NCBI GenBank assembly: GCA_009379825.1
Contig: WHTA01000009.1
Coordinates: forward strand, 62,001-126,000
Reading direction: 5' to 3'
Length of the DNA: 64,000 nt
DNA from: Streptosporangiales bacterium
Lineage (GTDB): Bacteria; Actinomycetota; Actinomycetes; Streptosporangiales; WHST01
Under the pieces are notes generated by a model. The model was not told where the DNA came from and did not search any database. It saw only the letters and a program-made list of their open reading frames with translations. Below, in pieces: positions 41,244-47,202 of this stretch. The position numbers were made by a program, and so were the translations under genes. Position 1 is the first letter of the stretch; each line of letters begins with the position of its first letter.

Positions 41244-42107
41244 TCACGCGTCGACGGGTACCCAGTGACCGTCGTCGAGGGTGCCGAGTACGACGTCCGC
41301 GAAGTGCATGCCGTAGCCGACGGTGTCCGGGCGTGCGAGGAGGTCGGCGAGGAGCTCGCGCGACGCCCGCGCCGCTGCCGGGGCGCTGTCCCTGCGCGCG
41401 CCGTGCTCGGGGTGCTCCAGCTCGACCGGGTTGTGCGCGGCGTCGCCGACCACCACCAGCTCCCGGCCGCCGCCGGCGAGCACGAACGACGTGTGTCCTG
41501 GCGTGTGGCCCGGCGTCGGCAGGGCCGTCACGCCGGGGAAGATCTCGGCGCCGCGGGCGAACGTCTCGACCAGCTCGCCGAGCGGGCCGAAGAACGTCTC
41601 CTGGTCGAGTTGGCCGTACTTGTCGCCGTGCGACCGGCAGAACGCCCACTCCGGCTCCGCTACCAGGTACCGCGCGGACGGGAACACCGGTGGATGCCCC
41701 GGCCGGTCGCGGTGGACCAGCCAACCGACGTGGTCGAAGTGCACGTGGGTGACCACGACCGTGTCCACGTCCGACGGTGAGACGCCGAACTGCGCGAGGT
41801 TGTCGAGCAGGGCGCCGCCGCGAAACGGGCCGAGGCCGCGTGCCGTCGCGTCCGGACCCTCGAACGCGGGCCCTGGACCGTACCCGGTGTCGATCAGCAG
41901 GGTACTTCCGTCGCGCTGGACGAGCAGCCCGCCGAGGCTCGCCACCAGCGTCCCGTCCGCGGCGAGGTGCTGCGGGTAGCGGTGCCAGTCGACCGTGGGC
42001 AGGAACACCTCGGGGATCAGTGCGCCTACGCCGTCCGGTACGTAGCTGACGGTGGCGTCGCCGAACGTCAAGGACCTGCCGACGGCGGCCCGCACCAGCC
42101 GGCTCAT
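41244..42107 (-). CDS. MBL-fold metallohydrolase
   Basis: This 287-residue protein has the zinc motif THVHFDHVGW, a following PTPGHTPGHT, GDAAHNP and a late YGMHFAD. It belongs to the AhlD/quorum-quenching-lactonase-like and metallo-hydrolase group. ATG 42107 overlaps the GntR stop (ATGA), so the two are co-transcribed. A role in hydrolysing a lactone or ester intermediate of the adjacent pathway is possible. It converges with the TIGR03086 gene. Confidence 0.85.
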   Translation of the reverse strand: MSRLVRAAVGRSLTFGDATVSYVPDGVGALIPEVFLPTVDWHRYPQHLAADGTLVASLGGLLVQRDGSTLLIDTGYGPGPAFEGPDATARGLGPFRGGALLDNLAQFGVSPSDVDTVVVTHVHFDHVGWLVHRDRPGHPPVFPSARYLVAEPEWAFCRSHGDKYGQLDQETFFGPLGELVETFARGAEIFPGVTALPTPGHTPGHTSFVLAGGGRELVVVGDAAHNPVELEHPEHGARRDSAPAAARASRELLADLLARPDTVGYGMHFADVVLGTLDDGHWVPVDA

Positions 42108-42787
42108 GCCGACTCGACGTCGCTGGTGGACGGGGTGGCCGCGTCGTCCGCGAGGGCGGCCTCCGCGGCGGCCCTGATGTGCGACCGCCAGAGCTGGCTG
42201 GCCCGGTCGCCGCCGCGGTCGCGCAGCGCGGCCAGCACCTCCTCGAGCTCGGTCTGGCTCGCCTGCGCGCGGCCCGGCCGGCCCAGCGACTGCGCGCGCA
42301 GCCGCCACAGCCGGCTCTGCAGCAGCGACGCCTGGCCCTCGAGCAGCTCGTTGCGTGCGCCGGCGTACAGCTTGGCGTAGAACGCCTGTTTCGCGGCGAG
42401 CATCGCGTCGACGTCACCGCACTCGTGCGCCGTCCGCAGCTCGCCGACGGCGTCGCCGAGCGAGGCGAGCTCGGCGTCCGTCGCGCGTTCCGCGAACAGC
42501 CGGATCGCGTGGCACTCGAGCGCCTCGCGCACCTCGTAGACGGCGACCGCGTCGGCGGCGCTCATCCGCGCGACGGTCGCGCCGCGGTGTGGCGTCACGG
42601 TGATGAAGCCCTCGGACTCCAGCTGGCTGTACGCCTCGCGCAGGGTGGCGCGCGAGACGCCGATCCGGTCGCTGAGGTCGCGGTCGACCAGCCGGTCGCC
42701 TGGACGGAGCTCGCCCGTCGCGATCGCGTGCCTGATCGCCTCGGCTGCCTGCTGGCGCATCGGAGCCACTACGCGCATCACCCGCAT
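42104..42787 (-). CDS. GntR-family regulator, FadR subfamily
   Basis: This 227-residue protein has the winged helix (AIATGELRPGDRLVDRDLSDRIGVSRATLREAYSQLESEGFI) and an all-helical FCD domain (EVREALECHAIRLFAERATD, HECGDVDAMLAAKQAFY). ATG 42787 was chosen; the longer open frame upstream has no homology. It is divergent from the aldehyde dehydrogenase operon with a palindrome in between, so it is probably its repressor, sensing a carboxylic acid. Confidence 0.9.
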   Translation of the reverse strand: MRVMRVVAPMRQQAAEAIRHAIATGELRPGDRLVDRDLSDRIGVSRATLREAYSQLESEGFITVTPHRGATVARMSAADAVAVYEVREALECHAIRLFAERATDAELASLGDAVGELRTAHECGDVDAMLAAKQAFYAKLYAGARNELLEGQASLLQSRLWRLRAQSLGRPGRAQASQTELEEVLAALRDRGGDRASQLWRSHIRAAAEAALADDAATPSTSDVESA

Positions 42788-42875: not shown

Positions 42876-44468
42876 ATGGCTACACGGCCGACGAGGTACG
42901 GCCTGTTCATCGACGGCGACCAGGTCGAGGCGACAGCCGCGGGCACGCTGGACGTCACCGACCCGGCGACCGGGGAGACCTGGGCACAGGTTCCGGACGC
43001 GTCGGCGGCGGACGTGGACGCCGCGGTGCGCTCTGCGCACGCCGCGTTCACCGAGGGGCCGTGGCCCCGTTACCGGGCCGCGGACCGGGCCGGCTTCCTG
43101 ATCAGGTTCGGGCAGCTCGCCCAGGAGCGCGCCGACGAGCTGGCCGAGCTGCAGGTGCGGGAGAACGGCAAGCTGCACCGCGAGATGTACGGCCAGACGA
43201 AGCTGCTGCGCGAGTACTTCGAGTACTACGCGGGCCTCGCGTACACACTCGGCGGCTCGACCAACCAGCTGCACGTCACGGACATGGTGAACTACACCGG
43301 CCGCGAGCCGCTCGGCGTGGTCGCCGCGATCACCCCGTGGAACTCGCCGCTGCTGCTGCTGGCCTGGAAGCTCGGCCCGGCACTGGCAGCAGGCAACACC
43401 GTGGTGGCCAAGCCGTCGGAGGTGACGCCGGTGTCCACCGTGCGGTTCGCCGAGCTGGCCGTCGAGGCCGGGCTGCCGCGCGGGGTGTTCAACGTGGTCA
43501 CCGGCCTCGGGCACCCGTCGGGCACCGCGCTCACCGGCCTCGGGCACCCGTCGGGCACCGCGCTCACCGGCCTCGGGCACCCGTCGGGCACCGCGCTCAC
43601 CGGCCTCGGGCACCCGTCGGGCACCGCGCTCACCGGCCACCGCGACGTCGCGAAGATCGCGTTCACCGGTTCCACCGCCACCGGCCAGGCGATCGCCGCG
43701 GAGGCCGGCAAGACACTGAAGCGCGTCTCGCTGGAGCTGGGCGGCAAGTCGCCCAACATCGTGTTCGACGACGCCGACCTCGACGGCGCGCTGAACGGGA
43801 TCGTCGCCGGCATCTTGGGCGCCAGCGGCCAGACCTGCATGGCCGGCTCGCGCATCCTCGTGCAGGACGGCGTCTACGACGAGGTGGTGAAGCGGCTCGC
43901 CGAGCGCGCCGACGCCATCACCGTCGGCGACCCGCGCGACCCCGCGACCGAACACGGCACGATCGCGTCGCAGGCGCAGTACGAGAAGGTCCTCAGGTAC
44001 GTAGAGGTCGCGAAGGCGGACGGCGCGAAGCTCGTCGCCGGCGGCGGGACCGCGAAGGTACCCGGCCTGGAGGACGGGTTGTTCGTCCGGCCGACCGTGT
44101 TCGCCGACGTCACCAACGACATGCGCATCGCGCGTGAGGAGGTGTTCGGCCCGGTCGCCGCGGTGCTCGGGTTCCGCGACGAGGACGAGGCGGTCGCCGT
44201 CGCGAACGACACCGAGTTCGGTCTCGCCGCGGGTGTCTGGACGGGCAGCGTGCAGCGTGCGCACCGGGTCGCCGCGCGGCTGCACGCCGGCACCGTGTGG
44301 ATCAACAATTACCGCAAGTCCTCCTACGCCACGCCGTTCGGCGGGTACAAGCAGAGCGGCCTCGGCCGGGAGAACGGGCGCGACGCACTGCTGGAGTACA
44401 CGGAGGAGAAGAGCGTCTGGGTCGACACCGGGCAGGGCGTGAAGGACCCGTTCAACCCGCGGGCGTGA
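42876..44468 (+). CDS. Aldehyde dehydrogenase with a four-fold internal repeat
   Basis: This 530-residue NAD(P)-dependent enzyme has AAITPWNSPLLL, AKPSEVTP, FTGSTATG, general-base Glu287 (LELGGKSPN), nucleophile Cys321 (GQTCMAG) and the C-terminal GGYKQSGLGRENG. It oxidises an aldehyde to an acid. Residues 209-252 are four exact copies of an 11-residue unit just before the FTGS cofactor loop. A normal enzyme has one, so it is 33 residues longer than expected, while the Glu-Cys spacing is standard. GGGAGG precedes ATG 42876. It leads an operon with a flavoprotein. Confidence 0.9.
   Translation: MATRPTRYGLFIDGDQVEATAAGTLDVTDPATGETWAQVPDASAADVDAAVRSAHAAFTEGPWPRYRAADRAGFLIRFGQLAQERADELAELQVRENGKLHREMYGQTKLLREYFEYYAGLAYTLGGSTNQLHVTDMVNYTGREPLGVVAAITPWNSPLLLLAWKLGPALAAGNTVVAKPSEVTPVSTVRFAELAVEAGLPRGVFNVVTGLGHPSGTALTGLGHPSGTALTGLGHPSGTALTGLGHPSGTALTGHRDVAKIAFTGSTATGQAIAAEAGKTLKRVSLELGGKSPNIVFDDADLDGALNGIVAGILGASGQTCMAGSRILVQDGVYDEVVKRLAERADAITVGDPRDPATEHGTIASQAQYEKVLRYVEVAKADGAKLVAGGGTAKVPGLEDGLFVRPTVFADVTNDMRIAREEVFGPVAAVLGFRDEDEAVAVANDTEFGLAAGVWTGSVQRAHRVAARLHAGTVWINNYRKSSYATPFGGYKQSGLGRENGRDALLEYTEEKSVWVDTGQGVKDPFNPRA
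43500..43631 (+). repeat. Four perfect 33-bp tandem repeats inside the aldehyde dehydrogenase
   Basis: The units span 43500-43532, 43533-43565, 43566-43598 and 43599-43631 and are identical base for base. Each encodes TGLGHPSGTAL. A partial fifth copy (ACCGGCC) follows. Being a multiple of three, copy changes keep the frame. Exact identity points to recent slippage or unequal exchange, or to an assembly artefact. Confidence 0.95.
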
Positions 44469-44507: not shown

Positions 44508-45898
44508 ATGGCAGCAACACCACACGTCGTGGTCGTGGGCTCGGGCGTCGCGGGACTCTCCGCCGCGGTGACCGCGGCCGAGGAGCTCGGGTCCACGGGC
44601 AGCGTGGTGCTCGTCGAGCGATGCCAGGAGCAGGAGGCCGGCGGCCTCACCAGGTGGACGTCGGCGTACCTGCGGCTGGAGGACGTGTACGAGACGGCGG
44701 ACTCGTTCGTCGAGGACGTCGTCGGGTTCTCCGGCGGCCGCACCCGCCGCGCGTACGTCGAGGCGCTGCAGGCGGCCGTGCCCGACACCATGGAGTGGAT
44801 CCAGGGGCACGGCGCCAGGTTCAAGAAGCTGCCCACGTACTTCGTCAACAGCACCCGCCCGCGGCTGCAGCCGGTCGGCGGCGGTGAGGCGCTGCGGAGG
44901 CACCTGCTCGCGGCGGCGGAGCGGCTCGGTGTCGACATCCGTTACGAGACAACGGCGGTCGACCTGGTGCGCGACGACGCCGGCGCGGTGGCCGGGCTCG
45001 CTGTGGAGCGCGACGGGCAGCGGTTCGTCGTGGACGCCACTGCCGTGGTCATCGCGTCCGGCGGCTTCGAGGGCAACCCCGGGGACCTCGCCGCTGCGCT
45101 CGGTCCAGAGGCGGACCGGCTCGTCGCCGTCGCACCTGGGGCGCACGCCAACAGGGGCGAGGGGATCGCCATGGCGTTGCGCGCCGGCGCTGCACGCAGC
45201 GGCGAGTGGGACAACTTCCATGCCGAGCCGGTCGACCCGCGCAGCAACGACCCCGGGGCGCTGGTGATGGTGTTCCCTTACGGCATCCTGGTGAACGCCG
45301 CCGGCAGGCGCTTCGTCGACGAGGGTGCGGGCACCGTCGACGAGGCGTACGAGCAGACCGTGCGGGCGATCTGGCGTGAGGGAAACGGCACCGCGTACTT
45401 CGTCACCGACAGGCAGCTCACCGACATCTCCGACTAGGCCAGGGGAATACTGACCTCGGTACAGCCGGTGCGGGCGGACACCGTCGAGGACCTCGCGGTC
45501 GGCCTTGGCCTGTCGCCCGAGGCGTTGCGCAGCACGGTCGACGAGTTCAACGCCGCTGTCGCGGACGGCGACTACGACTGGGTGCGCAAGGACGGCAAGC
45601 GCACCCACGGGCTCGACCCGGACAAGTCGAACTGGGCGCTGCCCGTCGACCGCCCGCCGTACGTCGGCTACCCGGTCGCCTGCGCCATGGTGTTCACCTT
45701 CGGCGGCATCGACGTCGACGAACGTGGCCGGGTCTCGACGAGCGGCAGCGTCCCGTACCTGGCCTGTACGCGGCGGGGGAGTGCACCGGCATCTACTACG
45801 GCAAGTACCCGGGGGCGACATCGGTGCTGCGCGGCCTGGTGTTCGGCCGGGTCTGCGCGCGAACGATCGCCGAGACGACCGTGGGAGCGTCCCGATGA
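44508..45898 (+). pseudogene. FAD-dependent oxidoreductase (fumarate reductase/TcuA-like), in-frame TAG and frameshift
   Basis: ATG 44508 (GAGAAGGGAAG upstream) starts an FAD-binding protein with VVVVGSGVAGLSAAVTAAE, AVVIASGGFEGN and a catalytic-domain region (GILVNAAGRRFVDEG). TAG 45435-45437 interrupts LTDISD, and the same frame continues with ARGILTSVQPVRADTVEDLA and STVDEFNAAVADGDYDW. At CCC 45752-45754 a one-base loss shifts to VPGLYAAGECTGIYYGKYPGATSVL, ending at 45898. Joined, it matches tricarballylate dehydrogenase-like flavoproteins. A TAC to TAG change at 45435 fits. It lies between the aldehyde dehydrogenase and an MHS carrier. Confidence 0.8.
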
Positions 45899-47202
45899 GC
45901 GCGACGAACCAGCCGAAGCGCGTGGCGCTCGGCAGCCTGGTGGGCACCACGATCGAGTGGTACGACTTCTTCATCTACGGCCAGGCCGCAGCGTTGGTCT
46001 TCGACAAGCTCTACTTCCCCGACCTCCCCGCGCCCGTCGCCACCCTGGTGTCGCTGGCGACGCTCGGCGTCGGCTTCGTGGCCCGACCGGTCGGTGGCTT
46101 GCTGTTCGGCCACTTCGGCGACCGGCTCGGCCGCAAGAGCGTGCTGATCGTCACGCTGCTCGCCATGGGCATAGCGACGATGCTCGTCGGCGCGCTGCCC
46201 ACCGCCGCGACCATCGGGGTGTGGGCGCCGATCCTGCTCGTGCTGCTGCGGCTGGTGCAGGGTGTCGCCGTAGGCGGTGAGTGGGGCGGCGCCGTGCTGA
46301 TGGCGGTGGAGCACTCACCCGAAGGCCGTCGCGGCTTCTACGGGAGCATCCCGCAGATGGGCATCCCGCTCGGCCTGATCTCGTCGTCCGGTGTCTTCGC
46401 GCTGTTGTCCGGCGCGATGTCGGACGAGGCGTTCCTCGCCTGGGGCTGGCGGGTGACGTTCCTCTCCAGCATCGTGGTCGTGCTCGTCGGGCTGTTCATC
46501 CGGCTCGGCATCGACGAGTCGCCGTCGTTCGCCCGGGTGAAGGAGCGGTCGGAGCAGGTACGTATCCCGCTGTTCGAGGTGCTGAAGTACGCCAAGCGCA
46601 CCGCGGCGCTCGCGATCGGCAGCCAGGCGCTGGTGAACATTGCCTTCTACGTCGCGACCGTCTACGTGCTGACGTACGCCAGGGACACCGCAGGCATCTC
46701 CCGCACCGAGAGCCTGCTCGCGCTGCTGCTCGCCGCGTTCGTCGACCTGGTCGCCATCCCCACGTGGGCGGCGATGTCCGACCGGATCGGTCGACGCACG
46801 GTGTTCATCATCGGCGCGGTCGGCGCGGCGCTGCTCGGCTACCCGATGTTCTGGCTCGTCGACACCGGCAGCTTCGGGCTGACGGCGCTCGCCCTCAGCC
46901 TGGTGCTCGCGCTCGGGCACGCGCCGACGTACTCCACGCTGGCGTCGTTCCTCTCCGAGTCGTTCGACGTACGCATGCGGTACAGCGCGATCTCGGTGAG
47001 CTACCAGTTCGCCGGCGCCCTGTGGAGCGGCCCGACACCGCTCGTCGCGGCCGCGCTCGTCGCGGCGACCGGGGGCGTCGGCGTGCTCGTTGGCGTCATG
47101 TCCGGCGCGCTCGTGGTCACCGTCGCCTGCACGCTCGGCCTGCGGGAGACGTACCGGGCCCGCCTGGACGCCGCCGAGCCGGAGGCGGTGAAGGTGTCGT
47201 GA
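45895..47202 (+). CDS. MHS-family MFS transporter
   Basis: This 435-residue, 12-helix carrier has GTTIEWYDF at residues 17-25, GHFGDRLGRK, GGEWGGAVLMAVEHSPEGRRGF and SDRIGRRTVF. It is intact, unlike the paralogue at 32020. The start overlaps the flavoprotein stop (ATGA) and the end overlaps the alcohol dehydrogenase start (GTGA). It probably imports the carboxylate or precursor handled by this operon; TcuC of tricarballylate systems is also an MHS member. Confidence 0.9.
   Translation: MSATNQPKRVALGSLVGTTIEWYDFFIYGQAAALVFDKLYFPDLPAPVATLVSLATLGVGFVARPVGGLLFGHFGDRLGRKSVLIVTLLAMGIATMLVGALPTAATIGVWAPILLVLLRLVQGVAVGGEWGGAVLMAVEHSPEGRRGFYGSIPQMGIPLGLISSSGVFALLSGAMSDEAFLAWGWRVTFLSSIVVVLVGLFIRLGIDESPSFARVKERSEQVRIPLFEVLKYAKRTAALAIGSQALVNIAFYVATVYVLTYARDTAGISRTESLLALLLAAFVDLVAIPTWAAMSDRIGRRTVFIIGAVGAALLGYPMFWLVDTGSFGLTALALSLVLALGHAPTYSTLASFLSESFDVRMRYSAISVSYQFAGALWSGPTPLVAAALVAATGGVGVLVGVMSGALVVTVACTLGLRETYRARLDAAEPEAVKVS

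Follow-up and report, generated by a model that had tools for sequence, protein, structure and literature searches.

An exact four-copy, in-frame tandem repeat in an actinobacterial aldehyde dehydrogenase gene, probably a recent expansion

The aldehyde dehydrogenase locus

The window analyzed here is a 64,000-nucleotide stretch of a draft Streptosporangiales genome, and at its center of interest lies an aldehyde dehydrogenase gene (42876..44468, + strand) assigned by its Pfam Aldedh match (8.3e-176), its translation, and its fold matches. The protein is 530 residues long and would be 497 residues long if the repeated unit described below were present once. The PF00171 profile is matched at 585.5 bits, above a curated cut-off of 23, whereas none of the 25 NCBIfam families shown, out of 43 matched, reaches its curated cut-off, so that no substrate is assigned. 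Asn156, Lys179, Glu287, and Cys321, which we take to be the catalytic or active-site residues of aldehyde dehydrogenases (ALDHs), are invariant across 47 aligned rows, a conservation that agrees with the statement in an earlier note on this DNA that the catalytic residues are kept. The enzyme is changed at none of the 116 highly conserved positions, defined as those conserved in at least 97% of relatives.

The dehydrogenase gene sits within a cluster with a divergent GntR/FCD regulator (42104..42787, − strand; Pfam GntR and FCD), and a similar regulator stands in the corresponding position in eight of the nine relatives' loci compared. Downstream are a tricarballylate-dehydrogenase-like flavoprotein gene (44508..45898, + strand), interrupted by a TAG codon (45435-45437) and by a net frameshift shortly before 45761, an MFS transporter gene with an open frame (45895..47202, + strand), and a zinc alcohol dehydrogenase gene. 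A similar flavoprotein lies near the dehydrogenase in all nine relatives' loci (upstream of it in one), and a distantly similar transporter is found in three of the nine, at 28-33% identity per piece.

Within the dehydrogenase gene, a 33-bp unit is repeated in four identical head-to-tail copies (43500-43532, 43533-43565, 43566-43598, and 43599-43631) that remain open and in frame and encode TGLGHPSGTAL four times. The exact period-33 run extends over 43498..43638 (+ strand), 141 bp or 4.27 copies, which corresponds to four 33-bp units with 9 bp left over. The copies show no differences, silent sites included. The run is bordered by a 9-bp direct repeat, TCACCGGCC, which stands at the upstream edge of the array (43498..43506, + strand), where it is the probable slippage seed, opens each later unit (43531, 43564, and 43597), and recurs at the downstream edge (43630..43638, + strand). 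Allowing up to three mismatches, no further match to the unit was found elsewhere in the window, where 100 shuffles gave an expectation of 0, or elsewhere in the 6.15-Mb draft genome.

Copy number in relatives

Comparison of copy number among orthologues found the unit once in every one of 80 relatives (the best 80 of 574 confirmed, drawn from species genomes). Together with unit matching and translation, these counts uphold the earlier note's description of four exact in-frame copies, just before the FTGS motif, in place of one. The eight nearest relatives among these 80 are all actinobacteria, at 75-79% identity in the alignment; one of them, L017, reads TGLGSPSGTALTGHPGVDKIAFTGST at the unit. 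On sequence comparison, the expansion is private to the window's genome among those compared, and not ancestral. Because the four copies are identical even at silent sites, the array should be young relative to the split from these relatives, and the recent origin proposed in the earlier note is borne out by this exactness and by the single copy in all 80. The unit is thus unique in the genome and a single, ordinary part of the ALDH fold in relatives, and on these grounds a mobile element or a protein-repeat family was rejected as its source.

Two narrower searches add to this picture. Among three genomes of the genus and family, a search at E 1e-150 returned the window's own gene only. Among 394 genomes of the class, no ortholog besides the window's own was found at E 1e-190, with three candidates scored per genome and at a threshold stricter than most relatives would reach, and a strict doubled-unit pattern was absent from all other genomes sampled.

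Predicted effect on the enzyme

An AlphaFold2 model built on an alignment of 47 rows (46 of the 80 relatives were used) has a mean pLDDT of 86.9 and a pTM of 0.87. The dehydrogenase fold is kept in the model, and residues 212-244 alone fall below pLDDT 50, as an extruded stretch of low confidence. Outside this stretch the model superimposes on crystal structures of ALDHs, namely 4go3_A (Z 57.2, rmsd 1.7, 486 residues aligned) and 4pxl_A (Z 57.4, rmsd 2.3, 483 aligned). Betaine-aldehyde-dehydrogenase-like members of the ALDH superfamily (such as 5gtk, 4go3, and 4pxl) have the fold and the conserved residues in common with the window's enzyme; they align a single segment where the latter has the array, and the two matched stretches flank its extra copies.

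In the model, one copy corresponds to the turn after strand 205-207 together with helix 248-253, the helix being held by the last copy. The earlier note had the array replacing a single loop segment; the segment is indeed single in relatives, but it is not only a loop, since the unit forms a turn and the start of a helix. We hypothesize that one copy takes the native place, as the turn after the Rossmann strand and the start of the next helix, and that the three remaining copies would bulge from the surface as a flexible loop. In ALDH structures generally, the turn and the helix that carry the unit lie at the adenosine half of the NAD site, and for this reason an effect of the insert on cofactor binding is possible. 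A fold prediction of this kind follows its alignment and would look the same for a tolerated and for a damaging insert; read in that light, the model suggests that the four-copy enzyme probably still folds. We infer that the expansion is probably near-neutral or mildly harmful. Four exact copies in a conserved, cofactor-side segment would put the insertion tolerance of this common enzyme fold to a natural test.

Neighboring genes and the possibility of decay

The interrupted flavoprotein gene raises the question of whether the insert is instead a loss-of-function lesion within a decaying catabolic cluster, one that spoils cofactor binding and persists while the pathway goes unused. Several observations lend this some plausibility: the insert lies beside the cofactor site of ALDH structures; the adjacent gene carries a stop and a frameshift where all eight relatives compared have a single open frame across both places; and in the window's genome private changes are more frequent in the flavoprotein (32 of 229) than in the dehydrogenase (18 of 316; p 0.0014), whereas in the relative L021 the two genes do not differ in this way (13 of 210 versus 17 of 315; p 0.71). 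A direct comparison of the window with L021 for both genes is, however, not significant (p 0.10), and the 18 of 316 private changes in the dehydrogenase resemble the 17 of 315 in L021. The intact highly conserved positions of the dehydrogenase also speak against decay, as do the open frames of the transporter and the regulator, and the dehydrogenase bears no other sign of decay. The flavoprotein lesions could be either real decay or sequence errors. Taken together, we regard a loss-of-function lesion as quite unlikely. The pathway may nevertheless be in decay, in which case an awkward insertion would be more readily retained.

Origin of the array

The layout of the array, in which a 9-bp repeat opens each unit and recurs after the last, is the pattern left by slippage between short direct repeats or by unequal exchange between them. 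We hypothesize that the ancestral single unit opened with TCACCGGCC as a chance 9-mer, which was followed by the same 9-mer 33 bp further on. These direct repeats at the ends of the unit could have allowed slippage or unequal exchange to duplicate the segment, after which the extended stretch of homology would have favored growth to four copies; changes in length that were not multiples of three would have broken the frame and been lost. In the genes of the relatives, 9-bp matches spaced 33 bp apart are infrequent, at 0.04% of run starts. Among the 80 relatives (the best 80 of 574), a direct repeat at the same boundary measures 9 bp in one, 7 bp in three, and is missing in 44. The relative with 9 bp, L015, still has a single copy, so that such a seed permits expansion but does not compel it. 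Hairpin-driven slippage was considered as well and found unsupported, as the folding of the unit was no stronger than that of its shuffled versions on either strand. A NucS homologue is present in the genome and MutS was not detected in it, a combination we take to be usual for actinobacteria. If the four copies are real, the array would be a clear-cut case of expansion from direct repeats against this repair background.

The balance of this evidence leads us to favor, with moderate confidence, a recent tandem expansion of a 33-bp coding segment through slippage or unequal exchange, near-neutral or mildly harmful in effect, in an enzyme that probably still folds.

Other exact arrays in this and related genomes

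To place the array in its genomic setting, exact repeats with a period of at least 12, at least two copies, and a length of at least 36 bp were scanned in 2.064 Mb of the window's genome, about a third of it. All 13 arrays found there have periods divisible by three, a count in which two overlapping rows (L125) represent one locus; several of them are protein repeats of low complexity, for which such periods are to be expected in any case. The same-genus genome G001 has seven exact arrays in 0.800 Mb (six with periods that are multiples of three), and the relatives' loci have four in 0.836 Mb (three of them multiples of three); set against these densities, the 13 arrays in 2.064 Mb show no clear genome-wide excess of repeats.

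A second exact in-frame expansion, of 60 bp in 3.1 copies with an 8-bp remainder, lies in a periplasmic sugar-binding protein (Peripla_BP_4) of the window's genome (G000), at 2187-2374 of L128, which is 22187-22374 of contig C15. Its matches in the genus are 86-88% identical in G001 and 73-76% in G002, with a 66-bp overlap at the extra copies that corresponds to one copy, the single copy in both genomes resting on these overlapping match coordinates. A text pattern for the start of the segment, applied to five loci, found it in one (L240), in one copy. This expansion is a close parallel to the dehydrogenase array, likewise private to the window's genome among those compared.

The scanned sequences also contain shorter duplications within other coding regions. 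Exact in-frame duplications occur in a HAD-like hydrolase (18 bp, 2.3 copies; L094 7206-7246, G000) and in a LysR substrate-binding domain (15 bp, 2.5 copies; L203 16311-16348, G000). G001 has exact two-copy in-frame duplications at or near domain edges in a PucR-type regulator (30 bp; L222 5797-5857) and an acyl-CoA dehydrogenase (18 bp; L158 10111-10149). A longer 114-bp tandem array (3.3 copies, 96% matches; L147 6416-6787, G000 contig C14) lies where third-position GC is low and is possibly non-coding.

Reliability of the assembled copy number

An assembly error, in which the true copy number differs and a loop in the assembly graph was traversed too many or too few times, bears on all of the above. 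Assembly errors would not respect the reading frame, and the preserved frame of all 13 exact arrays sampled in this genome argues against such an origin, although for the low-complexity protein repeats among them this is expected. Furthermore, a single-copy gene would give the assembler only a 9-bp repeat, which should be too short to form a loop in the usual k-mer graph; at least a duplication is therefore probably real. The exact number of copies could be wrong, since tested k-mer lengths from 21 to 108 all leave duplicated k-mers in the array, and those of 109 and 127 leave none. The genome is a draft in 169 contigs, the stop and the frameshift in the neighboring flavoprotein could also be sequence errors, and tandem repeats are known to cause assembly errors (PMC6868369). 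We consider an error in the assembled copy number unlikely, though it deserves some weight, and the case is a reminder that repeat proteins of this kind need to be checked against reads before functional claims are made.

Relationship to known tandem duplications

Among the titles listed in a literature search, none concerned tandem repetition within the cofactor segment of an ALDH. Tandem repeats in promoters are described for M. tuberculosis in one study (PMC12817950), and the closest counterparts of the recent expansion favored here come from beta-lactamases. In-frame tandem repeats arose de novo in the omega loop of the PenA beta-lactamase of Burkholderia thailandensis and reverted at 9.3e-7 to 3.6e-5 (PMC4169377). 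Such reversion illustrates that exact repeats are unstable in principle and, with the position of the array next to the cofactor site, could be taken to favor a contingency locus, in which the number of copies would vary within the population and tune the enzyme. No length variant is present in any of the 80 relatives (the best 80 of 574), however, nor does the strict doubled-unit pattern occur in any other of the 394 class genomes sampled, and the case for functional length variants comes solely from the general instability of repeats. We therefore consider a length-switch locus very improbable, and hold equally improbable its fuller form, an adaptive, reversible length switch that would tune cofactor affinity through the turn and helix on the adenosine side, in a lineage repeatedly making multi-copy in-frame expansions inside folded proteins.

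The likeness to PenA lies in the manner of duplication. As in the PenA cases (PMC4169377), the array is an in-frame duplication of a short segment within an enzyme. In the TR1-3 type described there, the template opens with one copy of a short, perfect direct repeat and stops immediately ahead of the next, as does the dehydrogenase segment with TCACCGGCC at 43498 and 43630. That type also has a single copy in a parental or related allele, for which the 80 relatives (the best 80 of 574) stand in here, rather than a parental strain. The PenA repeats differ in having two units, drug selection, and a measured change in substrate range and reversion, whereas the present array has four units and is known from sequence alone. 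KPC carbapenemase variants carry in-frame tandem duplications that add 3-84 bp, always in multiples of three, for which slippage was proposed (PMC12593533); they share with the array insertions in multiples of three within an enzyme gene, and differ in their clinical selection, in the enzyme, and in the place in the fold. Viewed beside these systems, the expansion in the aldehyde dehydrogenase is of an already known, ordinary kind, comparable to the tandem repeats of the beta-lactamase omega loop.
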